Source: Rhodobacter sp.
GTDB taxonomy: Bacteria > Pseudomonadota > Alphaproteobacteria > Rhodobacterales > Rhodobacteraceae
Direction: 5' to 3'
DNA: 64,000 bases
Assembly (NCBI GenBank): GCA_027487575.1
Contig: JAIYDJ010000120.1
Span: forward strand, 1-64,000
This document shows, piece after piece, positions 9,302-34,207 of the stretch (its first letter is position 1; each line of letters starts with the position of its first letter). The notes below the pieces were generated by a model. The model did not search any database, was not told the origin of the DNA, and saw only the letters and a list, made by a program, of their open reading frames with translations. The position numbers and the translations under genes were made by a program.

Positions 9302-9907
9302 CTAGTTTTGTGGCGGCGCGCCAAGATCTGATTTGATTCGGGCGCGGAAAACGTCTGGCATCATCCAGTTAGGTTGGTGGCCAAGAAGCATCTGGAGGAA
9401 CCCCGATGAAAAGCTGGTGTCCTGCATCGTGTTTTCCTTAAACGACCACCAATGCCGCAAATCGTCGATCGCCGGGTCCAGCGCGGTTTGATCGTGGAAC
9501 TCCTGCTCCATCGCCGCGGCATGGACCGATAGACAGAACAAGGTGCAGCAATAGCCTTCGGGCCAGAAGGCGGCGGCTGAATTGGAATCCGCCAGCGTTG
9601 CAGGGCCTGTGGCCTTCAAGGGCAAGTCCGCGGTAAGTTCGCGCAAGACCAGAGCTGCGGCGAACTCGAAGAACGCTTTACGTTCGGACTTGTCTGCCGG
9701 GCGCTGAATTTCGACCGCATTCAGCCAGCGCATGAATGCGGCGGCCAGTTTCACATCGTCAATCTCGAACGTGCAGCCAAGGTCACGCGCAGTAACCTCT
9801 ACAAAGCGCTGAAACGCCTGCTTGAACCAGCGCATCCGTCGCACCGCGATGCGCAAAGGTTCGTTGGTGGCAGGAAGCACCCCTGTGTTCAGTTTGATTT
9901 CAGACAT
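9302..9907 (-). CDS. hypothetical protein at the end of the transporter/kinase operon
   Basis: 201 residues from MSEIKLNTGVL; the longer frame upstream overlaps the preceding gene and is not protein-like. Helical, without signal peptide or membrane span. One stretch, WPEGYCCTLFCLSVHAAAM (about 112-130), is Cys-rich. It overlaps the upstream gene by 8 bases, so the two are co-translated. Family unknown. Its place as the last gene after a sugar kinase may mean a role in the pathway or may be chance. Confidence 0.6.
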   Translation of the reverse strand: MSEIKLNTGVLPATNEPLRIAVRRMRWFKQAFQRFVEVTARDLGCTFEIDDVKLAAAFMRWLNAVEIQRPADKSERKAFFEFAAALVLRELTADLPLKATGPATLADSNSAAAFWPEGYCCTLFCLSVHAAAMEQEFHDQTALDPAIDDLRHWWSFKENTMQDTSFSSGFLQMLLGHQPNWMMPDVFRARIKSDLGAPPQN

Positions 9908-10634
9908 GGGACACGTACTTTTTGTAAAGTGCCGCGATCCGGGCCACATCCTTTTCCGCAGCCGCCGCCGAAATCTCGGGGGCCAAGGCGACGGCCATGT
10001 CACTTGCAGCCATCAGCGCCGCCTCGTTCTCTTCGTCCGAGCGCGCGGCCTGCAGCCAAAGCATCACTGCAAACAGGCTCACGGCCTCCAATGATGCACC
10101 GGGAACCAATGCGGCTTGTTGTGCGGTGGTACCGCGCATGACCCGCGCATTCAGCAGACAAAAGGTCAATTGAGCGGCACGATTCTCGACTGTTTCCTCC
10201 GACACCCTGCCAGACAAGCGATCAAAGGCGGCACGCGCGGCGGCCTCGCTGACCAGCACTTTGGCTGCCCCGAGATGCCGCAACACGGTTGTAAGTGCGA
10301 CATAAAACGCCACCGCAAAATCGCCGCGTGCGTTTGGCTTTTCCATGATGTCCTGCAAAGGCAGGGCAGAAATGGCCGATCCGCCAAGCAGGTTCTTGGC
10401 GACATCCGAGGCGATTTCGTCAACCGAACGCAGAAAGTCCCCTGCCTCGCGCAGCGCGACGTTGGCAAAGTCTGACGCCGGCTTGGGCAGGACATCCAGA
10501 TCAAAGGTTTCGGCAATCGCCTCACCGCCACGGCGCAACACAAAGCGCAAGCCGCGCAGTGCTTCGCGAAGCGGCATGGCATCGGGGCGATGAAACGAAT
10601 GATTGGACAATTCAGGTATCCTCTTTAGAGGCAT
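9900..10634 (-). CDS. hypothetical helical protein downstream of the PfkB kinase
   Basis: 244 residues from MPLKRIPELS; an alternative start is at MPLREALRG. Rich in Ala and predicted helices throughout, no membrane span, no catalytic motif that I recognise. The ATG lies 6 bases after the kinase stop and the gene overlaps the following one by 8 bases, so it is part of the operon SBP-permease-permease-ATPase-kinase. Function unknown. Confidence 0.6.
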   Translation of the reverse strand: MPLKRIPELSNHSFHRPDAMPLREALRGLRFVLRRGGEAIAETFDLDVLPKPASDFANVALREAGDFLRSVDEIASDVAKNLLGGSAISALPLQDIMEKPNARGDFAVAFYVALTTVLRHLGAAKVLVSEAAARAAFDRLSGRVSEETVENRAAQLTFCLLNARVMRGTTAQQAALVPGASLEAVSLFAVMLWLQAARSDEENEAALMAASDMAVALAPEISAAAAEKDVARIAALYKKYVSHV

Positions 10635-10640
10635 TATAGC

Positions 10641-11621
10641 CTAGCCGGAAGAAGATACCAACCTGTCCTTGACCGTGCGATGCGGGGTAGCGCGCATGAA
10701 GCCAAGGGTTGTTGCGAAATCCTTGATCCCGGCCTGACTGCCCAGACCCGTGGCATTTTGCGCGGAAGATGCCTGCGCGATCTGAACCGCCTCGGGCATG
10801 GAAACCCCCTTGATAAGACCCGTCGCAAAACCGCCGTTAAAGCAATCGCCGCAGCCGCAGGTGCATTTCACATTCACCTTGTAGGCAGGTGTGTGAAACT
10901 CAGTCCCGTCGCGGTGGCGGTAATAGGCCCCGTCCGCGCCAAGGGTCAGGATGACGCAACCCGCCCCCCGGTCGATCAGAAACTGCGCCAGGTCGCGGTT
11001 CTCGTGCAGACCTGACAGGGCGCGGGCTTCTTCTTCGGAGGGCAGAAAATAATCGGTATGGGGCAAGAGGCGCGCCACTTTGGGCAGGTCGTCGGGGGTT
11101 GAGGCGAAGACATCCAGCGTGGTGATCACGCCGCGCCGCTTGGCCTCGGTCATGACTTCCTCGGTCCGGCCCTGATCCATGCGGTTCATAAGGCCGACAC
11201 CGCCGACATGCAGGATGCGGGTGTCCAACAGATCGTCGATCTGGCTGTCGTCGATGTAAAACCCGTCGGTGGCGCCTCTTTTGTGCAAGGCAGGCCGTGC
11301 GCCGTCAGGCCGGGTGGTGACGATGGAGGACGAGGTAGTGAATCCCTCGCAGCGCGCCATCATGGAAATGTCGATGCCGAACTTGGCCAGTTTCATCAGA
11401 ACCCAGTCGCCCATATCATCATAACCAACACCGCCCACAGCACGCGCGTGTAAACCGTGCTTGGCCGCCACAATCACCGCGCTGCCCGCAGCGCCGGAAA
11501 CCGCCAGCGTGTAGTCCTCGACGAAATAGGTATCACCGCCCGGTGGTATCTGGGTGACCGGGCGGCAAAGGGCGTCAAAGGTGATGAAGCCCATTGAGGT
11601 ATAATCAAACTTCGGGCTCAT
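10641..11621 (-). CDS. PfkB-family carbohydrate kinase
   Basis: 326 residues of the ribokinase/PfkB fold. The N-terminal substrate-binding region (GFITFDALCRP, SGAAGSAVIVAAKHG) and the C-terminal anion hole and catalytic base CGCGDCFNGGF (about 258-268; the usual GAGD is CGCGD here) are visible. It should transfer phosphate from ATP to the imported polyol or sugar. It overlaps the ATPase gene by 4 bases (ATGA) and closes the importer set. From its divergent partners (DRL and acetoin-dehydrogenase-type genes) I infer a C5 branched polyol such as 2-C-methylerythritol as substrate; ordinary pentitols or ketoses remain possible. Confidence 0.85.
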   Translation of the reverse strand: MSPKFDYTSMGFITFDALCRPVTQIPPGGDTYFVEDYTLAVSGAAGSAVIVAAKHGLHARAVGGVGYDDMGDWVLMKLAKFGIDISMMARCEGFTTSSSIVTTRPDGARPALHKRGATDGFYIDDSQIDDLLDTRILHVGGVGLMNRMDQGRTEEVMTEAKRRGVITTLDVFASTPDDLPKVARLLPHTDYFLPSEEEARALSGLHENRDLAQFLIDRGAGCVILTLGADGAYYRHRDGTEFHTPAYKVNVKCTCGCGDCFNGGFATGLIKGVSMPEAVQIAQASSAQNATGLGSQAGIKDFATTLGFMRATPHRTVKDRLVSSSG

Positions 11622-12664
11622 GCGGCCCCCCGGATGCGCTGGCCGTCCTCGCCAAAGAAATACAGATGCGCAGGATCAAAGGTGATGCTTATGGGAACAT
11701 CAATGTCTGACCGATACTCACGCGCGGCTTTGACCTCGATCTTCTTGGTCCCGGCCAGCACGGTCAGATAGGTGGTGTCGCCGGTCGGCTCCACCCCGTA
11801 CACCATGCCTTGCACGTTGTCGCCGCCAACATGGCAATCCTCCGGGCGCACTCCCAGTGTGACACGGCCCTGCACGTAACCGGGACAAGCGGCAGTCACG
11901 CCTGGCGCCACAAAGCGGCCGTTCTGCGCAACACCTTCAATCAGGTTCATCGGAGGGCTGCCAATGAACCCCGCGACAAAGGTGTTCGCCGGGTCGGAAT
12001 AGATCTGGTCCGGCGTCCCGACCTGCTGGATGGCACCTTTGTTCATGATGACAATGCGGTCGGCCAGCGTCATCGCCTCGATCTGGTCATGGGTCACATA
12101 GACCGTCGTTACCTTCAACTGCCGCTGCATGTGCTTGATCTGCACCCGCATCGACTGGCGCAGCTTGGCGTCAAGGTTCGACAGCGGTTCGTCCATCAGG
12201 AACACCTGCGGCTGGCGCACCACAGCGCGGGCCAAAGCCGCGCGCTGGCGCTGACCGCCCGACAGGGCCCCTGGCTTGCGGTCAAGAAAGCTGCCCAGTT
12301 CCACCATATCGGCGGCCTGCCGGATACGGGCATCATGCTCGGCCTTCGGAATCCCACGCATTCGCAGCGGGAAGCGGATGTTTTCGTAGATCGACATGTT
12401 TGGGTAAAGGGCATAGCCCTGAAACACCATTGCCACGTCGCGGTCTCGCGCGTCGATCTCGGTCATTTCCTCGCCGCCGATGACAATCTTGCCCCCGGTC
12501 GGCAGTTCCAGCCCGGCGATCATCCGCATCGTTGTAGTCTTGCCGCAGCCCGAAGGCCCCAGCAGCACCAGAAACTCTTCGTCCGCGATTTCCAAAGACA
12601 TGTTTTGCACGCCAACGAAGGCCCCGTACTTCTTTTCGATATTCTGAAGATGGATCGAAGCCAT
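11618..12664 (-). CDS. sugar ABC transporter ATP-binding protein (MalK/UgpC type)
   Basis: 348 residues. Walker A GPSGCGKTT (about 38-46), Q-loop, signature LSGGQRQRAALARA (about 134-147), Walker B VFLMDEPLSNLD and the switch His (YVTHDQIEAM) are intact. A C-terminal TOBE/regulatory domain (VTLGVRPEDCHV) is typical of MalK-type ATPases that drive CUT1 carbohydrate importers. It follows the second permease by 3 bases and overlaps the kinase gene. Energises import by the two permeases and the binding protein encoded upstream. Confidence 0.93.
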   Translation of the reverse strand: MASIHLQNIEKKYGAFVGVQNMSLEIADEEFLVLLGPSGCGKTTTMRMIAGLELPTGGKIVIGGEEMTEIDARDRDVAMVFQGYALYPNMSIYENIRFPLRMRGIPKAEHDARIRQAADMVELGSFLDRKPGALSGGQRQRAALARAVVRQPQVFLMDEPLSNLDAKLRQSMRVQIKHMQRQLKVTTVYVTHDQIEAMTLADRIVIMNKGAIQQVGTPDQIYSDPANTFVAGFIGSPPMNLIEGVAQNGRFVAPGVTAACPGYVQGRVTLGVRPEDCHVGGDNVQGMVYGVEPTGDTTYLTVLAGTKKIEVKAAREYRSDIDVPISITFDPAHLYFFGEDGQRIRGAA

Positions 12665-12667
12665 GGT

Positions 12668-13510
12668 TTATCCTTTCACTGCGCCCATTGTCAGACCGCG
12701 CGACAGGTGCTTTTGGATCAGGATCACAAGGATCAGGATCGGCACGAAGGCGATGAACGAGACAAGGGCAATTGCGTTGTAGATGATGCCGTCAGAGCCG
12801 CCAGTGAAGTTCGCCAGCGCCACCGACATGGTATAGGCGTTGGAGGTTGAGGCGATGAGCAGCGTGAACAGGAACTCGTTGATCGCAAAGATGGCCGCGA
12901 TCACGGCAGCGGTGATGATGCCGGGCAGACAGGCGGGCACGATGATTTCGCGCAGGATCGTCAGGTCGCCTGCCCCATCGGTGCGGGCGGCGTCTTCCAG
13001 CTCTTTGGGGATATCCAGCATGTAGCTGCGGATAATCCAGGTGACCAAAGACAGGTTGATTGCCGCATAGATCAGCATCAGGGCCCAGACCGAATCCAGC
13101 AGGCCAAGGGTTTTGAACAGAAAGAAGATCGGCACAGCGACAATGGCCGGGGCCATCATTCGGGTGGACAGGATGTAGAACCCGATATCCTCGCGCCCCT
13201 TGAACTCATACCGCGCCAGCGCATAGGCGGCTGGAATGGCAAGCATAAGGTCGATCACGACTGAGCCTGCCACCGCGATGACCGAGTTGCGCAGGTATTT
13301 CGCGATGGGCCAGTCGCTCATCAGCAAGTGCCACGCGTCAAGGCTGAAGGTGGGCCAGTAGATCGGCTGCGGGGTGATCACTTCGGTCCGGGGGCGAAAG
13401 CCGATGGACAGAAACCACAGGATCGGCAGCAGGCAGACCAAGGCCCAGCCTCCAAGAACCAGATAGCGTAGCAGCATGCTTTCGCCGCGGGATTTGCGTG
13501 CTTTGGCCAT
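12668..13510 (-). CDS. sugar ABC transporter permease (MalG type)
   Basis: 280 residues with about six membrane spans. The EAA loop that docks the ATPase is visible as ELEDAARTDGAGDLTILREI (about 166-185). Arg/Lys-rich N-terminus before the first span (YLVLGGWALVCLLPILWFL). The ATG abuts the stop of the other permease gene. Inner-membrane channel half for a CUT1-type polyol or sugar importer. Confidence 0.93.
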   Translation of the reverse strand: MAKARKSRGESMLLRYLVLGGWALVCLLPILWFLSIGFRPRTEVITPQPIYWPTFSLDAWHLLMSDWPIAKYLRNSVIAVAGSVVIDLMLAIPAAYALARYEFKGREDIGFYILSTRMMAPAIVAVPIFFLFKTLGLLDSVWALMLIYAAINLSLVTWIIRSYMLDIPKELEDAARTDGAGDLTILREIIVPACLPGIITAAVIAAIFAINEFLFTLLIASTSNAYTMSVALANFTGGSDGIIYNAIALVSFIAFVPILILVILIQKHLSRGLTMGAVKG

Positions 13511-14449
13511 TTACTTCTTCCCCGAATGGAAGGCGCGTTTGACGACCGTCTGGGCGATAATCACCGTCAGGATCAGCATCAGCACTGACGCCGCCGAGGC
13601 GTAGCCAAAGTTGAACATGCGGAAGCCTTGCCGGTAGATGAAGTAACTCATGGTTTCCGTGGCGCCGCCGGGCGTGCCTTGGGTCATGACAAAGACGTTG
13701 GTGAACATGGTGGTGATGTCGATGCCGCGCAGGGTGATGGCAACCACGATCACCGGGCGCATCATCGGCAAGGAGATGTTCCAGAAGATGCTAGGCCAGC
13801 TTGCGCCGTCAAGGCGGGCGGCCTCTTCAATTTCCTGATCCTGCCCCTGAAGTGCGGCCACGAAGATGATGAACAGGAACGGCGTCCATTGCCAGACATC
13901 GGCAACAATCAGCGTCAGTCGTGCCAGCGGAATGCTGCCCAGCCAATCTATATTGCCTTCGATCAAACCCAGGCGACCCAACAGATCGGAAATCACGCGT
14001 CCATCGTTGAAAGCCAGCTTCCAGATAAAGGCCACGGCCGAAGGCATGAACAACATCGGCATCAGATAGACGATGCGCCAGCCGCGAATGAACGGGTCAC
14101 GATATGCAAAATACGCAATGGCAAGGGCGATGACGGTTTGCAGGGTCAGCGAAATGGCCCCGATCAGCGCGGTATTGCCAAGTGCCGCCCAGAACTCGCG
14201 GTCCTGCAGAATGGCGGAATAGTTGCCGAAGCCGGTCCATTCCCATGTCAGGAACTTTACGACGAACAGGCTTTGATAAATGGCAAACAGCCCCGGATAC
14301 AGCGTGATGACCAGAAGATATGCCAGTGCTGGGGCCAGCAGAATATAAGGGAACGCGCGGCGCAATGCGGGGCTGCGGCGGCGCGGAGCGGGCTTGGGGA
14401 TGGCTTGCGCCACCCCTTTCGCCGGAACTGAGGGAGCATCAGTTCTCAT
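13511..14449 (-). CDS. sugar ABC transporter permease (MalF type)
   Basis: 312 residues from MRTDAPSVPAKG; the longer frame runs antisense-like through the binding-protein gene and is rejected. About six membrane spans with the EAA loop EIEEAARLDGASWPSIFWNI (about 205-224). A proline/arginine-rich cytoplasmic N-terminus precedes the first span. Overlaps the 3' end of the binding-protein gene by a few bases only in untranslated sequence and abuts the second permease gene. Forms the channel with the MalG-type partner. Confidence 0.93.
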   Translation of the reverse strand: MRTDAPSVPAKGVAQAIPKPAPRRRSPALRRAFPYILLAPALAYLLVITLYPGLFAIYQSLFVVKFLTWEWTGFGNYSAILQDREFWAALGNTALIGAISLTLQTVIALAIAYFAYRDPFIRGWRIVYLMPMLFMPSAVAFIWKLAFNDGRVISDLLGRLGLIEGNIDWLGSIPLARLTLIVADVWQWTPFLFIIFVAALQGQDQEIEEAARLDGASWPSIFWNISLPMMRPVIVVAITLRGIDITTMFTNVFVMTQGTPGGATETMSYFIYRQGFRMFNFGYASAASVLMLILTVIIAQTVVKRAFHSGKK

Positions 14450-14453
14450 CGGA

Positions 14454-16007
14454 TCAGAACGGCAAGGCTTTGCCGGCACCAACATAGAAGCCTGGCGCCG
14501 CATCGGCATAGGCCACTGGGCCGCTGCCATCCTTGAAGCCGTTCTTGGCCATGATCGCGGTCCAGGCGGCTTGCCCGTTGTCCAGCGCCTCTTTGGCGGT
14601 GATCTGACCAGTGATCGCGCGGTTGATCTCATTGCCGAGGGCCTGTTCCATTTCGAACATGCCGGGAAGGCGCGGCGAGCACCAGGCATGGTCAAGGCTG
14701 TCGGCCCAGACCTTCATCGGCTGCGATACCTTGCGCAGGTTTTCGTTGGCCAGCACCGAACGATAGCCGGGTGCCACGCCGTTGGCGTTGGCTTCGTTCA
14801 TCGCCATGATCGACGAGGTGGTCAGGAACGCCAGCATCAGGAACGCACCTTCGGGGTTCTGGCTGGTGGCCGTGACGACCGAGGTCGAACCCGCGATGTT
14901 TGGCGGAGCGAAGACACCGCCAGCAATCCGGGGTTCGTAGATGGTGACAAAGTCATCCACGATCTGGCTTTGGTCCGGCCGCATGCCTTGCGTGCCGCTG
15001 TCCTGCCACGAGATGTTTGCCGCAACTTGACCGCCCAGCCATGCCGCACGGTTTTCGCCCCAGCCCGCGCCCGACACGCCTTCGATGGCGTTCTTCGACA
15101 GGGCCAGCAGCGTTTCCAGACCCTTGATCCCGGCATCGGTGTTCAGCGTCGGGTTCCAGCTTGCGTCAAACAGCTGCATCCCGGCCTGCGCCGCGATGTG
15201 TTCCCACGAATAGGTGGACCAGAATCCGCGCGCGCCCAGCAAACCAATGCCTGCCACGCCACCGCCCAGCTTGTTGGCTTCGGCGGTGATGCGGATCAAC
15301 TCGTCATAGGTCGGAACCGAGTTCGCCAGATCAATCGGTCCGCCCAAGATCGGCTCCAGCACCGACTTGCGCAGGTGAACCATCTGGATGTCGCAGTCAA
15401 ACGGCAGGCCGACCAGCTTGCCACCGAAGTAGCCGTAGTTCAGCCGGTAGGTGTCATAGTAGTCGTCCAAGGGCAGCGCCCATTTGGCCGCATAGTCGTC
15501 CAGCGGAGCCAGGAAGCCAGGAGCCGCAAAGTCGCCCAACCATGCCGAAAAGAATTGCAGCGCGTCGAACGAGGCGTTGCCCGAAATGAATTCGGAAATC
15601 GCCTTGTCGTAGATGCTGTCGTCAGGAATCGGAACCAGCTCGACCTTGATGCCGGACAAAGCCTCGAATGGTGCCAGACCTTCGGCCGCCGACTCTTGAT
15701 CTGCAGCGCCAATGGCGAAACGAACCGTGGTGCCGCCCAGTTCAGTGCGAACCTTCTCCCAATCGACCGTGCGAATCCAGTCCTTGGCAGGGTCCCACAT
15801 CGGGGTGTTATCAAGGTTGTAAAGCTTGCGGTAATCCTCGCGGACGTACTTCTCGACCGAAATGCTGTCGAGTGTCGCTTGAATGTCCGGCAAGCCCGAT
15901 TGAGCCAATGCCGGCGTCTTAAGCCCGATGACGCCAGTGGCGGCACCAAAGGCGGCCCCCGTGCGCAAGAACGAGCGGCGGGACATGCCCCCCATACGAT
16001 TTGTCAT
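14454..16007 (-). CDS. family 1 extracellular solute-binding protein, Tat-exported
   Basis: 517 residues. MSRRSFLRTGAAFG near the N-terminus is a twin-arginine signal followed by a hydrophobic segment and an ALAQ cleavage site. The mature part is a two-lobed carbohydrate-binding protein of the kind paired with CUT1 importers. A very strong ribosome site (GGAGGAAG) precedes the ATG. First gene of the leftward operon, divergent from the DRL gene across a 264-base control region. Captures the substrate in the periplasm; specificity cannot be read from the sequence. Confidence 0.9.
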   Translation of the reverse strand: MTNRMGGMSRRSFLRTGAAFGAATGVIGLKTPALAQSGLPDIQATLDSISVEKYVREDYRKLYNLDNTPMWDPAKDWIRTVDWEKVRTELGGTTVRFAIGAADQESAAEGLAPFEALSGIKVELVPIPDDSIYDKAISEFISGNASFDALQFFSAWLGDFAAPGFLAPLDDYAAKWALPLDDYYDTYRLNYGYFGGKLVGLPFDCDIQMVHLRKSVLEPILGGPIDLANSVPTYDELIRITAEANKLGGGVAGIGLLGARGFWSTYSWEHIAAQAGMQLFDASWNPTLNTDAGIKGLETLLALSKNAIEGVSGAGWGENRAAWLGGQVAANISWQDSGTQGMRPDQSQIVDDFVTIYEPRIAGGVFAPPNIAGSTSVVTATSQNPEGAFLMLAFLTTSSIMAMNEANANGVAPGYRSVLANENLRKVSQPMKVWADSLDHAWCSPRLPGMFEMEQALGNEINRAITGQITAKEALDNGQAAWTAIMAKNGFKDGSGPVAYADAAPGFYVGAGKALPF

Positions 16008-16271
16008 TATTGTCTTCCTCCCTTTGGCGATACTTGATCGGTTACCCGCCTGCCGCGCAAGCCATGCGTCAGTGCGATCTCCTCAGACGCAATGACTGCC
16101 CAAACTGCGGTGCGTGAACTTTCGTTTCGCCAGAATATAATGTGTGCAGACATTGCGCCTGTCAATGGGGAATGTTTGCTGTATTTTGCTGCATTGCAGC
16201 GTGAACTCTTGATTGACAACGGAACAGAAGTTCATTTAGCCTTTGGCAAACACTGCAATGGAGGAACCCCG
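16008..16271. promoter_or_regulatory. divergent control region of the catabolic locus
   Basis: 264 bases between the binding-protein gene (leftward) and the DRL gene (rightward). It holds TATAAT at 16136-16141, a palindrome GCTGCA-T-TGCAGC at 16188-16200, and a TTGACA on the plus strand near 16213. The palindrome is a candidate operator for the SorC-type regulator encoded at the end of the rightward operon. A longer ORF start at 16092 runs through this stretch but has no ribosome site. Confidence 0.5.
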
Positions 16272-17591
16272 ATGCCCACGAATGTCGCCCTTACCGGATT
16301 GGCCAAGGACCTGGCCGCCCGCGCCGATAGCGGCAAGCCGATTCGGATCGGCCTGGTGGGAGCAGGAGAGATGGGAACCGACATCGTCAGTCGTGTGGCG
16401 CACATGCGCGGCATCGAAATCGGCGCCATCAGCGAGCTCAAAGCCGGAGCAGCCGCCAAGTCGGTCGAGATCGCTTACGGAAATGCCGACCGCGTGCAGG
16501 AAGTCTCGACCGCCGACGCCGCAAACGCGGCGATGGAGCAGGGCAAGGTTGCCGTTACCAACAACGTCAATGCCTTGCTTGAAGCAGGGCTGATCGACGT
16601 GGTGATCGACGCCACAGGCATTCCTGCCGTCGGGGCCGAAATCGGCCTTCAGGCAATGGAGCGCGGCAAGCATCTGGTCATGATGAACGTCGAAGCCGAT
16701 GTGACGATCGGGGCCTATCTGCGGTCCGAAGCGGAACGGCTGGGCGTGATCTATTCGCTGGGCGCGGGAGATGAACCGTCATCCTGCATGGAGCTGATCG
16801 AATTTGTCAGCGCCATGGGCCACCGGATCATTTCTGCGGGCAAGGGCAAGAACAACCCGCTGAACATCGACGCCACCCCGGATGTCTATAACGAAGAGGC
16901 GATCCGCCGCCACATGAACCCCCGCATGCTGGTGGAGTTCGTTGACGGCTCGAAAACCATGGTGGAAATGGCGGCCATCGCCAATGCCACGGGCCTGATC
17001 CCTGACAAACCCGGCATGCACGGCCCGGCTGCGGGTCGCGACGATCTTAACAAGGTGTTGATCCCCGAATCGGCTGGCGGGCTTTTGTCATCGTCCGAAG
17101 GTCGGGTGGATTACACCATCGGCAAGGGCGTGGCCCCCGGCGTGTTCGTGGTGGCCGAAATGGACCACCCCCGTATTCGGGAACGGATGGAAGATCTGAA
17201 GATGGGCAAAGGCCCCTACTTTACCTTCTTCCGCCCCTATCACCTGACCAGTCTCGAGGTGCCGCTGACCTGTGCCCGCGTGGTGCTGTATGGCAAGGCC
17301 GATATGGTTCCCATGGCCCGTCCGGTGGCCGAGGTTTGCGCCGTGGCAAAGAAGGATTTGGCCGTTGGTGATATGCTGGACCAGATTGGCGAGTACTGTT
17401 ACCGCGCCTGGATCATGGAAGCGACCGAGGCGCGCACAGCCGGTGCCATTCCCTGCGGTTTGCTGGCCGGCGCGAGAGTCACCACTGCAATTCGCAAGGG
17501 CGAGTTGATCACCTACGCCAACGCATCCGTTCCCGCAGACAGCAAGATTGCCGTCCTGCGCGCGCGGCAAGACAAGATGTTGGGCCTGTGA
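16272..17591 (+). CDS. DRL-family oxidoreductase (DXR-like, homoserine-dehydrogenase-like Rossmann fold plus SAF domain)
   Basis: 439 residues; the start is fixed by GGAGG 7 bases before ATG at 16272. An N-terminal NAD(P)-binding fold (IRIGLVGAGEMGTDIV, about 21-36), a central domain with VVIDATGIP, MMNVEADVTIG and GAGDEPSSCMELIEFV, and a C-terminal SAF-type region (IPCGLLAGARV, KGELITYANA) match the DRL family. The Brucella DRL converts 1-deoxy-D-xylulose 5-phosphate (DXP) to 2-C-methyl-D-erythritol 4-phosphate (MEP) in place of DXR. Here the gene is welded to acetoin-dehydrogenase-type genes (3-base gap) and faces a polyol importer and kinase. I therefore infer a catabolic role, oxidising MEP to DXP. 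The family call is from memory of family features; a broader homoserine-dehydrogenase-like label is the fallback. Confidence 0.7.
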   Translation: MPTNVALTGLAKDLAARADSGKPIRIGLVGAGEMGTDIVSRVAHMRGIEIGAISELKAGAAAKSVEIAYGNADRVQEVSTADAANAAMEQGKVAVTNNVNALLEAGLIDVVIDATGIPAVGAEIGLQAMERGKHLVMMNVEADVTIGAYLRSEAERLGVIYSLGAGDEPSSCMELIEFVSAMGHRIISAGKGKNNPLNIDATPDVYNEEAIRRHMNPRMLVEFVDGSKTMVEMAAIANATGLIPDKPGMHGPAAGRDDLNKVLIPESAGGLLSSSEGRVDYTIGKGVAPGVFVVAEMDHPRIRERMEDLKMGKGPYFTFFRPYHLTSLEVPLTCARVVLYGKADMVPMARPVAEVCAVAKKDLAVGDMLDQIGEYCYRAWIMEATEARTAGAIPCGLLAGARVTTAIRKGELITYANASVPADSKIAVLRARQDKMLGL

Positions 17592-17594
17592 ATC

Positions 17595-18593
17595 ATGACG
17601 CAGCCTGACAACCGCCCTTTTGCCATCCGAACCTACGCGCCAGACCAGCTGCGCGAGGCGCTCAAGCGTATGTATCTGATCCGCCGGTTCGAAGAAGGTG
17701 CCGAAGACTGCTACACGCGCGGATTGATCCACGGAACTATGCACCTGTCCATCGGGCAAGAAGCCAGCGCCATGGCCACCTGCCTGGAGTTGACGGATGA
17801 TGACAAGATCACCTCAACCCATCGGGGTCATGGGCACTGCATTGCCAAAGGCGCCGATGTCGGTCGGATGTTTGCCGAATTCTTCGGCAAAGAGACCGGC
17901 TATTGCCACGGGCGCGGCGGGTCGATGCACATCGCCGATGTGAAAACCGGGAACCTTGGGGCGAACGGCATTGTCGGCGGCGGCTTGCCGATTGCGGTCG
18001 GTTCTGCGCTGTCAGCCAAGCGTCTGTGCAAATCGGATGTCACCGTCTGCTTCTTTGGCGACGGCGCCAACAACGAAGGCGCATTCCACGAGGCGCTGAA
18101 CATGGCCGCCGTCTGGAAGTTGCCCGTTGTTTTTGTATGCGAAAACAACGGCTACGGCATGTCCACATCCACTGCCCGCTCAACGGCGGTCAAACATATC
18201 TCGGAACGTGCGGCGTCTTACTCGATGCCGGGTGTGACGGTGGACGGCAACGATTTTTCCGCCGTGGCCGAAGCCGTGCACATCGCCGTTGCGCGGGCGC
18301 GGGCCGGGGATGGGCCGTCTTTGGTTGAAAACCTGACCTATCGCTGGCGTGGTCATTCCAAATCGGACCGCAATCGCTATCGCACCAAGGAAGAGATTGA
18401 AGAGTGGATGACGCGCGACCCAATCGCGCGGTTCCGTGCCGAACTGATTGCCCATGGTCTGCTGGATGATGCCGGCGCCAATGCCATCGAGGCCGCAGCC
18501 ATTGCGGACATGGAGGCCGGGATCGAATTTGCCAAGGTCAGCCCCTCGCCGAAGCTTTCCGAAGTGACCCGCTACGTCTACGCGGAGAATTGA
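17595..18593 (+). CDS. TPP-dependent dehydrogenase E1 alpha subunit (acetoin dehydrogenase type)
   Basis: 332 residues. The TPP/Mg motif [18 protein letters not shown] begins near 152 and ends at the CENNGYG segment. [10 protein letters not shown] and the phosphorylation-loop-like RWRGHSKSD are typical of E1 alpha proteins. Pairs with the E1 beta gene that starts one base after its stop. In acetoin dehydrogenase this E1 cleaves a methyl ketol and passes the acetyl group to lipoate. Here the presumed substrate is DXP or a related 1-deoxyketose rather than acetoin, because of the flanking DRL, kinase and importer genes. Plain acetoin or a 2-oxoacid remains possible. Confidence 0.85.
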
Positions 18594-18594
18594 G

Positions 18595-19623
18595 ATGAAC
18601 GCCATGACACAAGAGCCGGCAAGCCAAACCCAAGACCTGCGCATCCTGTCCTATGCAGAGGCAATCCGCGAGGCCATGGCGATTGCCATGGAGGCCGATC
18701 CCACCGTCATATTGATGGGTGAAGATATCGGCGTTTACGGTGGGGCCTTTCAGGTGACGCTGGATCTGGTTGACCGTTTCGGCACCGACCGCGTGATGGA
18801 TACGCCAATCTCTGAACTGGGCGGCGCGGGTGTGGCCGTTGGCGCGGCGCTGACCGGGCTCAAGCCAATTTTCGAATTCCAGTTTTCCGATTTTGCCATG
18901 CTCGCGATGGAACAGATCGTCAACCAGGCCGCCAAGCTGCGCTACATGCTTGGCGGCGAGGCATCAGTGCCGGTGGTGTTCCGCCTGCCATCTGGTTCAG
19001 GCACCGGGGCTGCGGCGCAGCACAGCCAGTCGATCGAGGCATGGTTCGGCCATGTGCCTGGTTTGAAGGTGCTGCAACCATCAACCCCCGAAGACGCCAA
19101 AGGGATGCTGCTGGCAGCGCTTGCAGATCCTGACCCGGTCATGATTTTCGAACATAAGTTGCTTTACAAAATGAAGGGCCATGTCCCAGAAGGCAGCTAT
19201 CTGACCCCCATCGGCAAGGCGCTGGTGCGACGCGTTGGCACCGATGTGACCATCGTGGCCGGATCGATCATGTTGCACCGCGCACTTGAGGCGGCAGAAA
19301 AGCTGAGCTCTGAGGGGATCAATGTTGAGGTGATCGACCTGCGCTCGATCCGGCCCATTGACCACGAGACGATTTTGACCTCGGTTCGCAAAACCGGTCG
19401 GCTGATGGTGGTCTATGAAGGCGTCAAGGCCTTTGGTGTCGGGGCCGAGATCAGCGCCATGGTCGCCGAAAGCGATGCGTTCGATTTTCTGGATGCCCCG
19501 ATCCTTCGTCTTGGCGCAGCAGATGCCCCCGTGCCCTATAACCCCGATCTGGAACGCGCTTCGGTGCCGCAGGTCGACACCATCGAGGCCGCCGCGCGCC
19601 GCCTGACCCGCCGCGAGGTCTAA
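18595..19623 (+). CDS. TPP-dependent dehydrogenase E1 beta subunit (acetoin dehydrogenase type)
   Basis: 342 residues with the E1 beta signature: [16 protein letters not shown] (about 40-55), the catalytic region [18 protein letters not shown] and [20 protein letters not shown]. The C-terminal domain ([27 protein letters not shown]) completes the transketolase-like fold. Sits between E1 alpha and the E2 gene with gaps of 1 and 3 bases, so subunits are made together. Forms the alpha2beta2 E1 that decarboxylates or cleaves the ketol substrate. Confidence 0.88.
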
Positions 19624-19626
19624 GCC

Positions 19627-21261
19627 ATGCCCGTCGAAGTGATCTTGCCAAAGGTGGACATGGATATGACCCATGGCACCCTGGCCGTCTGGCATGTGGC
19701 CCCTGGCGACAACGTGACCAAGGGTGCCGCCCTGTTTGACATCGAGACCGACAAGGCTGCGATGGAAGTGGAAAGCCCTGCCTCTGGCAGGTTGCATGCC
19801 GTCACAGCAAAACCGGGCGACAAAATTGCCGTTGGCACTGTCGTTGCGTTGATTTTTGCCGAAGGTGAAGATGTGGTCAAGGTGGCCCCGGCCCCGTTGG
19901 TCGAACCCACTCCCGCAATTGGCCCGCAACCTGTCGAAGTGATCCTGCCCAAGGTCGATATGGATATGTCGCATGGCACGCTGGCCGTCTGGCACGCCGC
20001 CGAAGGTGACAGCGTGACCGAAGGCTCCGCCCTGTTTGACATTGAAACCGACAAGGCCGCGATGGAAGTGGAGGCCCCGGCAACCGGGACACTGCATCAC
20101 CTGTTGGCCGCCCCCGGAGACAAAGTGCCCGTGGGCGATGTCGTTGCCTATATCTATCCTGCCGGCATGGCCGTTGGACCCCGTCCGGTGCGGGCCGCCG
20201 TCGCAGCCCCGAAACCCGCAACGGCTCAGCCCGCAGAATCTGCGCCCGGTTCGGTGGCAGCTCCCTTTGCTTCTGCGGCAGTTACAGACAGCGCCTTGCG
20301 CGCAACCCCCGCCGCCCGCGCGGCCGCGCGTCAGGCAGGCGTGGCCCTGGCCGAGGTGCCCGGAACCGGACCCAAGGGCCGTGTCCAGCGCGATGATGTG
20401 GCGGCCTATCTGGATGGCCAGCATAGCCCATTTCCCGCAATCTCCAGCCCCGTAATCTCCGGCCCCGCCGTCTGGTCGCCGCAGCCCGGCCCGTTGCACA
20501 TAAGCACCCGCAAGGGTCAGGGCATTCCTTTGGTCTTGCTGCACGGCTTTACCGCCGACAGCCAAAGCTGGGCCCCTTTGGAAAAGGCGCTTGGCCCTGA
20601 CCGAGCCCTGATCCGCATTGACCTGCCGGGGCATGGTCGCTCTCCCCGTCGCAAGCTGCGAAGCTTTGCCGATCTGGCCCGCATGCTGGTCGAGGCCTTT
20701 GACGAGGCAACGCGCGCGTATGACCGGGTGCATCTGCTTGGCCATTCTCTTGGTGGCGCGTTGTCGATTGCGATTGCTGATATTCGTCCGCGCACCATCG
20801 CTAGCCTGTCGTTGATCGCCCCTGCTGGTCTTGGCCCGGAAATCGACGCTGCCGCCCTGACCGGCATCACCCGCGCGACCCGCGCCGAAAGCTTGGCCCC
20901 GTGGTTGCGCCGCCTGACCGCCACGCCTGAAGGAATCAGCGACGACTACGCCCGCGCCGCGATGAAGCTGCGCGCCGATCCTGCCTTGCGGGCGGTGCAA
21001 GCCGATATGGCCCACGTGCTGTTCCCCGATGGCGTGCAACCTTTCGACCTGCGCCCGGCGATTGCGCGTATCGAATGCCCCACCGCCCTGATCTGGGGGC
21101 GTCATGACCATATCCTGCCCCATCGGCATTCGCTTGCCCCGGCCGGGGATTTCGCTATTCATCTGCTGTCCGCTGCGGGTCACGTTCCGCAGATCGAATG
21201 TCCTGAACGTGTCGCCCGCATTGTGGCGCGTCACTTGGCGGGGGCCATGGCGGGCATATGA
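19627..21261 (+). CDS. E2 component with two lipoyl domains, peripheral-subunit-binding domain and alpha/beta-hydrolase domain (AcoC-like)
   Basis: 544 residues. Two nearly identical lipoyl domains (about 1-80 and 100-180) each carry the lipoylation motif ETDKAAMEV. An Ala/Pro linker leads to an E1/E3-binding domain (about 223-263, ATPAARAAARQAGV). The rest is an alpha/beta hydrolase (LVLLHGF, GHSLGG nucleophile near 365, GRHD, GHVPQ) instead of the usual CAT acyltransferase domain. This layout is known from acetoin dehydrogenase E2, where the hydrolase fold moves acetyl from lipoate to CoA. No E3 gene follows, so a housekeeping dihydrolipoamide dehydrogenase must serve. The two lipoyl domains are a recent-looking tandem duplication. 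Confidence 0.88.
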   Translation: MPVEVILPKVDMDMTHGTLAVWHVAPGDNVTKGAALFDIETDKAAMEVESPASGRLHAVTAKPGDKIAVGTVVALIFAEGEDVVKVAPAPLVEPTPAIGPQPVEVILPKVDMDMSHGTLAVWHAAEGDSVTEGSALFDIETDKAAMEVEAPATGTLHHLLAAPGDKVPVGDVVAYIYPAGMAVGPRPVRAAVAAPKPATAQPAESAPGSVAAPFASAAVTDSALRATPAARAAARQAGVALAEVPGTGPKGRVQRDDVAAYLDGQHSPFPAISSPVISGPAVWSPQPGPLHISTRKGQGIPLVLLHGFTADSQSWAPLEKALGPDRALIRIDLPGHGRSPRRKLRSFADLARMLVEAFDEATRAYDRVHLLGHSLGGALSIAIADIRPRTIASLSLIAPAGLGPEIDAAALTGITRATRAESLAPWLRRLTATPEGISDDYARAAMKLRADPALRAVQADMAHVLFPDGVQPFDLRPAIARIECPTALIWGRHDHILPHRHSLAPAGDFAIHLLSAAGHVPQIECPERVARIVARHLAGAMAGI

Positions 21262-21285: not shown

Positions 21286-22245
21286 ATGCAGCCGGCAAAA
21301 CAGGCCACGATTGCCCAAAGTGAAACGGACCGCCTGCGCGCCCGCGCGGTCTGGCTTTACCATGTCGAAGGCAGCACCCAGAACGACATTGCAACGCAAT
21401 TAGGGATCAGCCGCGTGATGGTGGTGCGCCTGCTCGCCGATGCCCGTCGCCGCAATGAGGTGCGGGTCACGGTTTCGGCCCCACTTGCCGAACTGATCGA
21501 ACTGGAACGGCAGCTTGAAACCCGCTTCAACATTGCCCGCGTTATCATCGCGCCTTTCGCAGACTCCGAGGAAGATCCGGTCAAAGTTATCGCGGCGGCT
21601 GCAGGGAACTTCATATCCGGACTGATGAAGTCTGGCATGACCGTCGGCGTGGGCTGGGGGCGCACACTTTACAACACGCTTCCGTTCATCACGGGCGAGA
21701 CCCTCGAAGATTTTCGCGTGGTATCCTTGCTGGGCGGCATCGCGGCAGCACGGCGGTTCAACCCCGCCGAATTTGCCTGGCAATTTGCTGAACTGTTTCA
21801 GGGCGAGGGCTTTCTGATCCCGGCTCCTGCAGTTGTTGACAGTGCCGAGACCAAACATGCCCTGCTGGAGCGATGCGGTCTGTCGGCGATATTCGAGATG
21901 GCCACAAAGCTTGACGTGGCTCTTTTGTCAGTGGGCGGTATCACCAATCTGACAACAAGCTACCGCACCGGATACGTCACCGAAGCGGATCGACGCTCGC
22001 TGATAGACGCTGGAGCAGTGGGGGACGTACTCTACAATTTCATCGACGAAAACGGTGACCTTGTGGCGCATGACGTCAACAATAGGGTCATTTCGGTCAA
22101 CCTGTCCTTGTTGCGCCGTACGAAGGAGCGGGTGTTAATATCCGGTGGGAAAGAAAAGCGCATCGCGTTGCGAGCGGCCATAAAGATTCTTAATCCTTCA
22201 ACACTGATCACCGACGAGCAAACCGCCAAGGCGCTGGTAGTTTAG
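21286..22245 (+). CDS. SorC/EryD-type sugar-sensing transcriptional regulator
   Basis: 319 residues. An N-terminal helix-turn-helix (AVWLYHVEGSTQNDIATQLG, then ISRVMVVRLLADARRR, about residues 21-56) is followed by a sugar-phosphate-binding domain (VGVGWGRTLYNTL, VVSLLGGI, DVALLSVGGI) as in SorC and the erythritol regulator EryD. Such regulators bind phosphorylated sugars or polyols and control the neighbouring operons. It closes the rightward operon, 24 bases after the E2 gene. Likely inducer: the phosphorylated substrate or DXP. Likely operator: the palindrome in the divergent region. Confidence 0.88.
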   Translation: MQPAKQATIAQSETDRLRARAVWLYHVEGSTQNDIATQLGISRVMVVRLLADARRRNEVRVTVSAPLAELIELERQLETRFNIARVIIAPFADSEEDPVKVIAAAAGNFISGLMKSGMTVGVGWGRTLYNTLPFITGETLEDFRVVSLLGGIAAARRFNPAEFAWQFAELFQGEGFLIPAPAVVDSAETKHALLERCGLSAIFEMATKLDVALLSVGGITNLTTSYRTGYVTEADRRSLIDAGAVGDVLYNFIDENGDLVAHDVNNRVISVNLSLLRRTKERVLISGGKEKRIALRAAIKILNPSTLITDEQTAKALVV

Positions 22246-22782: not shown

Positions 22783-24255
22783 TCATCCTGCAGGTCGCAA
22801 ACTGGCCAAAACCGAACGCAAGCTTCCCAGCCCAGCTTCAAGGTTTTCGATGATCTCCTCGGCCAAGTCATCGGGTTCAGGCAGGTTGTCCAAGTCGGTG
22901 AGGCTTTTGTCCTTCAGCCAGAACAGATCGAGGCTGGCCTTGTCGCGGACAAGCAAATCTTCGCGGGTATAGGCGCGCCAGCGACCTTCGGGGGTGTCTT
23001 CTGACCATGTGGCGGCGCGATCGTGGCGGTTGGCGGGGTTATAAAGACGGACGAATTCGGCTAGATTGGCGTACGCGAGGGGCTTCTTCTTCAATGTGTG
23101 ATGAACATTGGTGCGGTAGTCGTAGAACCAGACCTCGCAGGTCTGCGGCTCTTTCGACGCAGGGCGGTTGTCGAAGAAGATCACGTTGGCCTTGACCCCC
23201 TGAGCATAGAAAATGCCGGTTGGCAGGCGCAGGATCGTGTGCAAATCGGTCATCTGCAGCAGCTTGCGGCGGATGGTTTCGCCGGCGCCCCCTTCAAATA
23301 GCACGTTGTCGGGCACCACCACCGCCGCGCGGCCGGTGGTTTTCAGCATCGCCCGGATGTGCTGCACAAAGTTCAGCTGTTTGTTCGACGTCGTCGCCCA
23401 GAAATCCTGCCTGTTGTAGGTGAGCTCGCCCTCGGCCTCGCCTTCGTCATTCGTGAAGGTCATTGAGGATTTCTTGCCAAATGGGGGGTTGGCCAAAACG
23501 TAGTCGTAGGTCTCGGCAGACGGAGCCACCAGCGCATCGGCGGGCGAGATCGGGCTGTCGCCGACCATCTCACCGATGTTGTGCAGGAACATGTTCATCA
23601 GGGCCAGCCGCCGGGTGCCCGCGACGATTTCGTTGCCGAAGAACGTGTGGTGCTTCAGGAACGCCTTTTGGTCACGGTCCATCGGGCGGGCGGTCAGATA
23701 GTCGTAGGCGGCGAGGAAAAACCCGCCTGTCCCGCAGGCCGGGTCCGCGATGGTGCGGCCGGGGTCGGGGGCGGCGCATTCCACCATGGCGCGGATCAGG
23801 GCGCGCGGGGTGAAATACTGGCCGGCGCCGGATTTAGTATCTTCGGCGTTGCGCTCCAGCAGGCCCTCATAGATGTCGCCCTTCACATCGGCGCCCAGCG
23901 TCACCCAGTCGGTTTCATCGACCAGCGCGATCAGCCGGGCGAGTTTCGCCGGGTCCTGGATCTTGTTCTGCGATTTGGTGAAGATCTGGCCCAGCATGCC
24001 AGGGCGTTTGGCCAATTCGCGAAGGGTGTCGATGTAGTGCACCTCGAGTGCGGCGCCCTTGGGGCTGCGCAGATCGGCCCAGCCGTAGCCCGCAGGCACG
24101 CCGACATCGCGGTTGTAGGGAGGGCGACTGTATTCATCGGCCATCTTCAAGAAGATGAGGTAGGTCAGTTGCTCCAGATAATCGCCATAGCCCACCCCGT
24201 CATCCCGCAGGGTGGTGCAGAAGTTCCAGACCTTTTGAACGATGGCATGGGTCAT
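22783..24255 (-). CDS. hsdM: type I restriction-modification DNA methyltransferase subunit
   Basis: 490 residues. An N-terminal helical domain (YGDYLEQLTYLIFLKMADE) precedes the methyltransferase core with the SAM motif DPACGTGGFF (about 170-179) and the adenine-methylation motif NPPF (about 256-259). Modifies N6-adenine in the site chosen by HsdS. Third gene of the operon; its ATG overlaps the hsdS stop by 4 bases. The C-terminal coiled coil (DLDNLPEPDDLAEEI) contacts HsdS. All key residues look intact. Confidence 0.94.
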   Translation of the reverse strand: MTHAIVQKVWNFCTTLRDDGVGYGDYLEQLTYLIFLKMADEYSRPPYNRDVGVPAGYGWADLRSPKGAALEVHYIDTLRELAKRPGMLGQIFTKSQNKIQDPAKLARLIALVDETDWVTLGADVKGDIYEGLLERNAEDTKSGAGQYFTPRALIRAMVECAAPDPGRTIADPACGTGGFFLAAYDYLTARPMDRDQKAFLKHHTFFGNEIVAGTRRLALMNMFLHNIGEMVGDSPISPADALVAPSAETYDYVLANPPFGKKSSMTFTNDEGEAEGELTYNRQDFWATTSNKQLNFVQHIRAMLKTTGRAAVVVPDNVLFEGGAGETIRRKLLQMTDLHTILRLPTGIFYAQGVKANVIFFDNRPASKEPQTCEVWFYDYRTNVHHTLKKKPLAYANLAEFVRLYNPANRHDRAATWSEDTPEGRWRAYTREDLLVRDKASLDLFWLKDKSLTDLDNLPEPDDLAEEIIENLEAGLGSLRSVLASLRPAG

Positions 24256-25814
24256 GGCTTGGTCTTTCTGCGGGGTTTGGGGGTCGTTTCTGTCAGCCGC
24301 GCGAGAAGGGCCGAGGCGGGTTCATCGGCGGGGTCTTGCTGGACGAGCTGGCCAGAGAAGGCCTTTTTCAGGATAGACTGGCGCAGGGCGGTAATGCGGG
24401 TGAGGGCGGTGGTGATTTCGCCATCCATATTCAGGATTTGCGATAGCTGCGCATCAAGTATCCGGTTGATCTCTGCTTGCTCGTCGGGGCCACAGATCGG
24501 CACGGGCAAAGCCTTCAAGTCAGCGCCTGAGATGCCCGCCTGACCCGCGGTTGTTCGGATGCGGCTTTCGATGAACGCGCGTGATTCACCGCAGTTTACG
24601 GCCTTCTCGAGAAATCCCGCGTCCATACGCTTAGATGCGACCTCGCACCTGATCAATTTGTCAGGGTAAACATGTGTTCCGTCACCGCGATAGACCGCAG
24701 CAACACCAACATAGGCGCGAGACCCGTTGTAGCGCGTGAAAACAAGGTCGCCCGGCTTCAGCAAGAAGGCGTCATAGTCATCCGAGGCCTTCAAAAAACG
24801 ATAGTCGGCCATGTCGAAGGCCATTGGCCTGACCGCGCTGATCCTGAAAATCGGCAAGCTTCCAGTCTCGTCAGGCTTATCTGAAATACCATTGCGGATG
24901 GAATACGCCAACTTTTCGAAGGGCGCGTACGTCCAGCCGAACGGGAGGGATGTGAGATCGCCGAAATCAATGTCTTCGGGCCATTCTGGTCTTGGCGGCT
25001 TCCCCGGTTTGCGCCCCAACTCACCGCCCGCGCGCCATTCCGACAGGGCGGTTTGCCAGTCGTCCAGGGCGGCGGCATAGCGGGCGTCGCGTTCCTTGCG
25101 GATGCGGGACAGCAGGGTTTCTTGGGATTCGAGTTTGTCGGGGTTGGCGGCGCGCCAAGGGGCGGTGAGTTTGCCTTCAAAGGCGGCTTTCAGCAGGGCC
25201 TGGCGATAGGTCTTCAACTGCGCGCGGGCGCGGGTCAGACTGGCGGTGCCTGCGTCGAGTTCCGAGAACAGCTCCTCGATCTTGGCAACGATGCGGTGTT
25301 GTTCGGGGAGGGGGGGGAGCGGGATGCGAAGTTGCGAAAAACGGTCGTGGGTCAGGTTCAACCCACTGTCGTTGATCCCGGTCTTCATCCTGTCGATTTC
25401 GAGCTGTGTCTCTTGGCGTCTGATCAAGTATGCCAGATACTTTGGATGCAGTGCCTTCGGGTGCGGTCGGAAGCGATACATCTTTCCGGACATCATCAAA
25501 CGTGCGGGCGTTGCTTCCACCAAGCATGCCACACCACATCTGTTCCGCGGTCCCGCACATGTCATCAACACGTCACCCGCCTTAACTTCGGTCTGGGGGC
25601 GCGGTTCAAGACTTGCGGGGAGTGCCTTGTTCTCATGCGGCCAAAACTCACCATGCTGGATCGCGGTAGTCTTCAAAACACCCCAAGCACCCTCAGCCGC
25701 CGGGAAGCTCTCACACTGTGGGCTCCAACCCTGCTGGAAGGGTCTGCCGTTATCGTTGTTCTCCAAGACCTCAATGATTTGAACGTCTTGCCAACTTGAT
25801 GGCAACCCCGTCAT
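24252..25814 (-). CDS. hsdS: type I restriction-modification specificity subunit
   Basis: 520 residues with two target-recognition domains separated by a long helical spacer. The first half contains QLRIPLPPLPEQHRIVAKIE followed by a helix; the second half has LKALPVPICGPDEQAEINRI, the matching end of the second recognition domain. Each domain reads one half of a bipartite target. The two halves differ strongly in sequence, as expected. The central stretch PGKPPRPEWPED is a proline-rich link. Overlaps both hsdR and hsdM by 4 bases. Confidence 0.92.
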   Translation of the reverse strand: MTGLPSSWQDVQIIEVLENNDNGRPFQQGWSPQCESFPAAEGAWGVLKTTAIQHGEFWPHENKALPASLEPRPQTEVKAGDVLMTCAGPRNRCGVACLVEATPARLMMSGKMYRFRPHPKALHPKYLAYLIRRQETQLEIDRMKTGINDSGLNLTHDRFSQLRIPLPPLPEQHRIVAKIEELFSELDAGTASLTRARAQLKTYRQALLKAAFEGKLTAPWRAANPDKLESQETLLSRIRKERDARYAAALDDWQTALSEWRAGGELGRKPGKPPRPEWPEDIDFGDLTSLPFGWTYAPFEKLAYSIRNGISDKPDETGSLPIFRISAVRPMAFDMADYRFLKASDDYDAFLLKPGDLVFTRYNGSRAYVGVAAVYRGDGTHVYPDKLIRCEVASKRMDAGFLEKAVNCGESRAFIESRIRTTAGQAGISGADLKALPVPICGPDEQAEINRILDAQLSQILNMDGEITTALTRITALRQSILKKAFSGQLVQQDPADEPASALLARLTETTPKPRRKTKP

Positions 25815-34131: not shown

Positions 34132-34149
34132 TTGGCTCCGGCGGTAGGG
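34132..34149 (+). repeat. proximal attachment site overlapping the tRNA-Asn 3' end
   Basis: TTGGCTCCGGCGGTAGGG, identical to 4432-4449. It covers CCA, the discriminator, the 3' acceptor strand and part of the T stem of tRNA-Asn, so the tRNA stays functional after integration. Confidence 0.85.
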
Positions 34150-34207
34150 ATCGAACCTACGACCAATTGATTAACAGTCAACTGCTCTACCGCTGAGCTA
34201 CGCCGGA
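34133..34207 (-). tRNA. tRNA-Asn (GTT)
   Basis: On the minus strand the 5' acceptor TCCGGCG (34207-34201) pairs with CGCCGGA before GCCA (encoded CCA end at 34135-34133). D arm GCTC-AGCGGTA-GAGC, anticodon arm GTTGA-CTGTTAA-TCAAT with anticodon GTT, and T arm GTAGG-TTCGATC-CCTAC are all intact. It is the integration target of the 29.7-kb island. Confidence 0.97.

Follow-up and report, generated by a model that had tools for sequence, protein, structure and literature searches.

In a Rhodobacter contig, a gene of a family whose only known role is to stand in for an enzyme of isoprenoid synthesis lies within what appears to be an operon for the breakdown of a sugar alcohol. What would such a gene do there? 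The window, the 64,000-nucleotide stretch of DNA that we analyzed, carries a DRL (DXR-II) gene on the forward strand (16272..17591; 439 aa), with GGAGG immediately 5′ of its reading frame. Our analysis indicates that this DRL very likely belongs to a catabolic unit. It likely acts as an oxidoreductase converting MEP to DXP. With rather more reserve, we favor a reading in which the operon would provide a full catabolic pathway for 2-C-methyl-D-erythritol (ME).

The identity of the gene is clear. By phmmer, its product matches Brucella DRL (3UPY) end to end over all 439 residues (E 8e-196), and Pfam places a DRL_cat domain in it (224 bits); it is thus a DXR-II by full-length homology. The residues K191, K193, T229, and R320, which are reported to hold fosmidomycin or the substrate or else to mark DXR-II (PMC3847144), are all kept, which assigns the protein to DXR-II rather than to DLO1 or DLO2. 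H250, E174, F178, and Y322 are likewise present. Sampling across the whole PF21135 class was uninformative because the profile matches mostly DLO relatives, true DXR-II being rare.

Downstream on the same strand follow the alpha (17595..18593; Pfam E1_dh, 295 bits) and beta (18595..19623) subunits of a TPP-dependent E1, an E2 of the AcoC type with two lipoyl domains, an E3-binding domain, and an alpha/beta-hydrolase domain (19627..21261), and a SorC-family sugar-binding transcriptional regulator (21286..22245; Pfam Sugar-bind, 189 bits). Gaps of 3 bp between DRL and E1 alpha, 1 bp between the E1 subunits, and 3 bp between E1 beta and E2 bear out the sequence-only reading, which had described a DRL-like gene starting a tight operon with acetoin-dehydrogenase-type genes.

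A second block is transcribed divergently, on the reverse strand. It comprises a periplasmic solute-binding protein (14454..16007; Pfam SBP_bac_1), two ABC importer permeases (13511..14440, start approximate; and 12668..13510, annotated as a carbohydrate ABC permease in a Sinorhizobium relative), a UgpC/MalK-like importer ATPase of the CUT1 type (11618..12664), a PfkB-family sugar/polyol kinase (10641..11621; Pfam PfkB, 139 bits), and two conserved proteins of unknown function, orfX (9900..10634) and orf4 (9302..9907). The kinase falls below every NCBIfam equivalog cut-off and fits no named substrate class. Paired with orfX, orf4 travels with the operon (39 loci), and the two accompany it in both Rhodobacterales and Rhizobiales. 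Invariant FWPEG and WW motifs characterize orf4, which has no match in Pfam, NCBIfam, or PDB folds. The predicted structures of orf4 and orfX are confident and all-helical, and neither matches a PDB fold.

The setting looks accessory, as had been proposed. GC content is ∼65% to the right of a tRNA-Asn gene (34133..34207, reverse strand) and 51–61% to its left, on the side of the DRL operon. This step suggests the edge of an island, with the tRNA gene as its probable right boundary. Type I restriction-modification genes (22783-28561) lie between the DRL operon and the tRNA gene, replication-type genes are found at the left end, and no integrase was identified. The flanks of the DRL cassette vary from genome to genome, and in relatives the cassette is plasmid-borne.

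Does this genome depend on the DRL for isoprenoids? The sequence-only reading had named the absence of dxr as the observation that would make this copy the essential biosynthetic one. We looked for the gene and found an ordinary dxr (397 bits) in the order uppS-cdsA-dxr-rseP; the window DRL is not the sole DXR of its genome. A PF21135 search of the assembly, which is about 89% complete, found no second DRL.

The catabolic context is both real and general. Among the 80 closest relatives, the great majority have E1 alpha, E1 beta, and E2 directly behind DRL, and carriers of the four-gene set include Rhodobacterales, Rhizobium, Mesorhizobium, Nitratireductor, Ochrobactrum/Brucella, and Phyllobacterium. 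The part that varies among relatives is uptake and phosphorylation, provided by an ABC importer with a PfkB kinase, by a glucitol-type PTS that comes with GutM and a fused HPr-EI, or by a galactitol-type PTS. The glucitol-type PTS replaces importer and kinase in Rhizobiales, Terrarubrum, and Pseudoroseomonas. In Listeria, Enterococcus raffinosus, and Ligilactobacillus, where DRL identity to the window protein drops to 35–39%, this PTS stands right after DRL and a SorC regulator lies close by. Some copies of the operon have the cofactor genes lpdA, lipA, and thiC-O-S-G alongside. Thus importer and kinase (or PTS) are conserved together with a sugar-sensing regulator, the signature of a polyol operon, and the common denominator of the uptake variants would be a phosphorylated sugar alcohol that is handed to DRL. 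The active site is also constant: K191, K193, T229, H250, and R320 never vary among 114 operonic, 91 non-operonic, and 4 Firmicutes DRLs, and this set is broken in the DLO relatives.

Not every cluster has this form. Two DRLs without E1, in genomes that have dxr, adjoin FGGY kinases, with ABC-importer genes nearby, which we count in favor of the model. The Firmicutes clusters also lack E1, which we count against the model; that of Ligilactobacillus has transketolase and fructose-6-phosphate aldolase in its place. In Ligilactobacillus salivarius, DRL, glucitol-type PTS, aldolase, and transketolase lie within an inositol/sugar region, an arrangement that suggests a different fate for DXP.

The region between the divergent blocks offers candidate sites for their joint control. 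An operator-like palindrome, GTGAACTTTCGTTTCGC (16114..16130, forward strand), is conserved among relatives and is our proposed SorC site; as GTGAACTTTCGTTTCRC, its position relative to DRL is −152 to −159 in both the window and nine window-type relatives, and it occurs once within the 64-kb window. A TTGACA followed by the inverted repeat GGAACAGAAGTTC (16213..16234, forward strand), also conserved in the alignment, may represent the DRL promoter and a second regulator site. Conserved sites in a shared divergent promoter are what joint control of both operons would need, and they fit a single regulator governing importer and kinase together with DRL-E1-E2.

These elements can be assembled into a proposed pathway for a 2-C-methyl-branched tetritol, most likely ME. 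The ABC importer would take up ME, and the PfkB kinase would phosphorylate it to MEP; where a PTS substitutes for both, import and phosphorylation would be a single step. DRL would then run against the biosynthetic direction, converting MEP and NADP+ to DXP and NADPH. Joined by E3 of the host cell, E1/E2 would then split the acetoin-like C2–C3 bond of DXP, using CoA and NAD+ and yielding acetyl-CoA and D-glyceraldehyde 3-phosphate. The SorC protein would sense a phosphorylated intermediate and control both operons. The DXR reaction reportedly lies toward MEP at equilibrium, so that the E1 reaction would have to pull the DRL step; this counts against the model, as does the failure of the PfkB kinase to fit a named substrate class.

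Published enzymology is consistent with this use of DRL. Both DXR-II paralogs of M. loti, and both of O. anthropi, work as DXR (PMC3847144). In the two-copy relatives from Mesorhizobium and Ochrobactrum that we examined, one of the two DRLs is operonic. From these relatives we infer that in M. loti and O. anthropi, too, the second, functional paralog is of the operonic kind. By this analogy, operonic-type DRL very probably interconverts DXP and MEP. Moreover, Finegoldia has an active DXR-II with neither MEP nor MVA genes, and Chloroflexus has one and uses MVA only (PMC3847144); in these organisms the enzyme is not there for the MEP pathway. The component families are all known. In the literature that we searched we found no pathway for the catabolism of methylerythritol or DXP, and neither this route nor an E1/E2 that cleaves DXP seems to have been described in it.

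What does the E1/E2 complex act on? The term acetoin-dehydrogenase-type, used in the sequence-only reading, suits its architecture, with E1 alpha, E1 beta, and a lipoyl/abhydrolase E2 within one operon, and suits the E2 itself, which at 414 bits clears the NCBI threshold of 307 bits for the E2 of acetoin dehydrogenase. It fits the E1s less well. These do not group with known AcoA/AcoB; alpha (support 99/99) and beta (100/99) each make up a separate clade, close to the Aco clade but not within it, and fall away from the pyruvate dehydrogenase of the same genome. In the alignment they also differ invariantly at alpha T48, in place of human Phe61, and at beta Q96, in place of human Met81, which we take to be pocket positions in the human numbering. 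Plain acetoin catabolism was rejected because of this phylogeny and of the gene context, and the complex most likely acts on DXP. DXP, an alpha-hydroxymethylketone, resembles acetoin in being an alpha-hydroxyketone, and the chemistry that applies to acetoin would convert it to acetyl-CoA and glyceraldehyde 3-phosphate. Pyruvate dehydrogenase, also an E1, produces 1-deoxyxylulose, and in aceE mutants DXP is raised and loss of dxs is rescued (PMC3424233). E1 enzymes can therefore handle a DXP-type bond, as shown in the opposite sense.

Could the operonic DRL instead be a redundant biosynthetic DXR, maintained for dosage or for lower fosmidomycin sensitivity among neighbors that are there by coincidence? 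The conserved substrate-site residues imply that DRL chemistry has been kept, and gene dosage or fosmidomycin tolerance is what the authors of the 2013 survey proposed (PMC3847144). Yet the same E1-E2 neighbors recur across many genera despite different importers, a canonical dxr is already in the genome, and DXR-II exists in organisms without any MEP pathway, all of which make this explanation very improbable. A catabolic role with another substrate deserves more weight, although we regard it as unlikely. DRL might have turned to another branched polyol phosphate as its substrate, or acetoin or 2,3-butanediol might be the compound broken down: E1 alpha shares 52% identity with an acetoin dehydrogenase of Enterococcus, the E2 score points the same way, and Ligilactobacillus pairs DRL with transketolase and aldolase. 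Against these readings stand the invariance of the DRL substrate-site residues, the importers and kinases or PTS, which indicate a phosphorylated polyol, and the lack of a butanediol dehydrogenase or AcoR-type regulator, unlike a true acetoin cluster.

The substrate might also enter one step later. 1-Deoxy-D-xylulose would be imported and phosphorylated to DXP, part of which E1/E2 would burn and part of which DRL would divert to MEP. DXP would remain the E1 substrate in such a scheme, E. coli XylB phosphorylates 1-deoxyxylulose (PMC3424233), and FGGY kinases adjoin two of the DRLs from dxr-containing genomes. However, the glucitol- and galactitol-type PTS transport polyols, not ketoses, and DRL leads the operon and is the gene most consistently present, even where E1 is missing. 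We consider entry as 1-deoxyxylulose improbable, and catabolism of ME through MEP is the reading that we carry forward.

How does the context of DRL relate to dxr? The sequence-only reading had suggested marking the DRL phylogeny by gene neighborhood and by dxr. We surveyed 129 genomes by whole-genome searches and fetched neighborhoods; the counts are raw, and relatedness inflates the association. Among 41 DRL genomes with dxr, 35 have operonic copies only, 1 has both kinds, and 5 have non-operonic copies only. Among 88 without dxr, the corresponding numbers are 10, 27, and 51, so that a non-operonic copy, presumed to be biosynthetic, is present in 78/88. Importer or kinase genes adjoin 63/77 operonic DRLs vs 4/88 others. 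The association between context and dxr is not significant after correction for relatedness, which leaves only 7 independent pairs and thus low power. Read most simply, the counts suggest that operonic DRLs serve catabolism, with another copy kept for isoprenoids in genomes that lost dxr. The 10 of 88 dxr-less genomes with only an operonic DRL count against the catabolic model: either an operonic DRL may double as a biosynthetic enzyme, or the assemblies in question are incomplete.

The earlier suggestion that the biosynthetic DRL was recruited from a catabolic one finds support at shallow nodes of the tree. In several Phyllobacterium genomes, operonic and non-operonic DRLs are near-identical and are mutual nearest relatives, and the non-operonic DRLs of Rubellimicrobium and Pseudochrobactrum nest inside operonic clades. 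At several tips of the tree, operonic copies can thus be seen to have been taken over for biosynthesis. Rubellimicrobium roseum is a Rhodobacterales genome in which dxr was undetected, and its nested non-operonic DRL looks like an independent recruitment. At least 12 changes of context occur on the tree; both kinds of copy sit at deep nodes and the root is uncertain, so a family-wide “catabolic first” history is plausible, with support for the suggestion confined to the shallow nodes. We put at slightly under even the chance that the primary and ancestral job of DXR-II is catabolic, from MEP to DXP with a new CoA-dependent oxidative cleavage of DXP, and that replacement of DXR was recruited several times, in Brucella, Bartonella, Mesorhizobium, and others. 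Some non-operonic DRLs, in Ochrobactrum and Mesorhizobium, still have a neighbor that may be a relic of a catabolic cluster, either a HAD phosphatase or a PTS of the galactitol type.

A catabolic role would bear on an old puzzle. The 2013 survey raised the question of how DXR-II, being redundant, could have arisen alongside DXR-I (PMC3847144). Reverse use for methylerythritol consumption would explain why many bacteria carry a seemingly redundant DXR-II, and would also account for DXR-II without an MEP pathway. A branched tetritol would gain a route of degradation and acetoin-type dehydrogenases a new reaction, and caution would be advised over DXR-II as evidence of isoprenoid synthesis or as a drug target. 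ME itself comes from plants and from isoprene oxidation and aerosol.

It is useful to contrast the DRL operon with systems already known. The closest enzyme is DXR-II/DRL of Brucella abortus (3UPY; Sangari 2010, Carretero-Paulet 2013), with full-length homology and identical residues at the tested substrate-site positions. The window genome differs in keeping dxr and in placing DRL at the head of a catabolic operon; in Ochrobactrum relatives, the Brucella-type copy lies outside such an operon and adjoins transhydrogenase-like genes. AcoABC shares the E1 alpha/E1 beta/E2 architecture and, by the NCBIfam cut-off, the E2. In contrast, the E1s of DRL operons branch separately and differ at pocket positions, and a sugar importer and kinase stand in place of AcoR or butanediol dehydrogenase. 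A Clostridioides difficile plasmid record holds a cluster in the order SorC-E1 alpha-E1 beta-E2-lpdA-galactitol PTS-class II aldolase-lipoate ligase, beside ispD-ispF. Its E1 beta is 58% identical, and H46, T48, S135, and T137 in the pocket region are shared with the DRL-operon E1s; it has an aldolase-family protein instead of DRL and is possibly a pathway for another 1-deoxyketose phosphate. Finally, erythritol and threitol operons share the layout of importer, kinase, oxidoreductase, and SorC-type regulator, and a pair of GlpD-like and Zn-alcohol dehydrogenases, which has no role in our model and counts against it, stands beside some DRL clusters as well. Where erythritol and threitol operons use dehydrogenases and isomerases, the DRL operon would combine a reductoisomerase with thiolytic cleavage by E1/E2.
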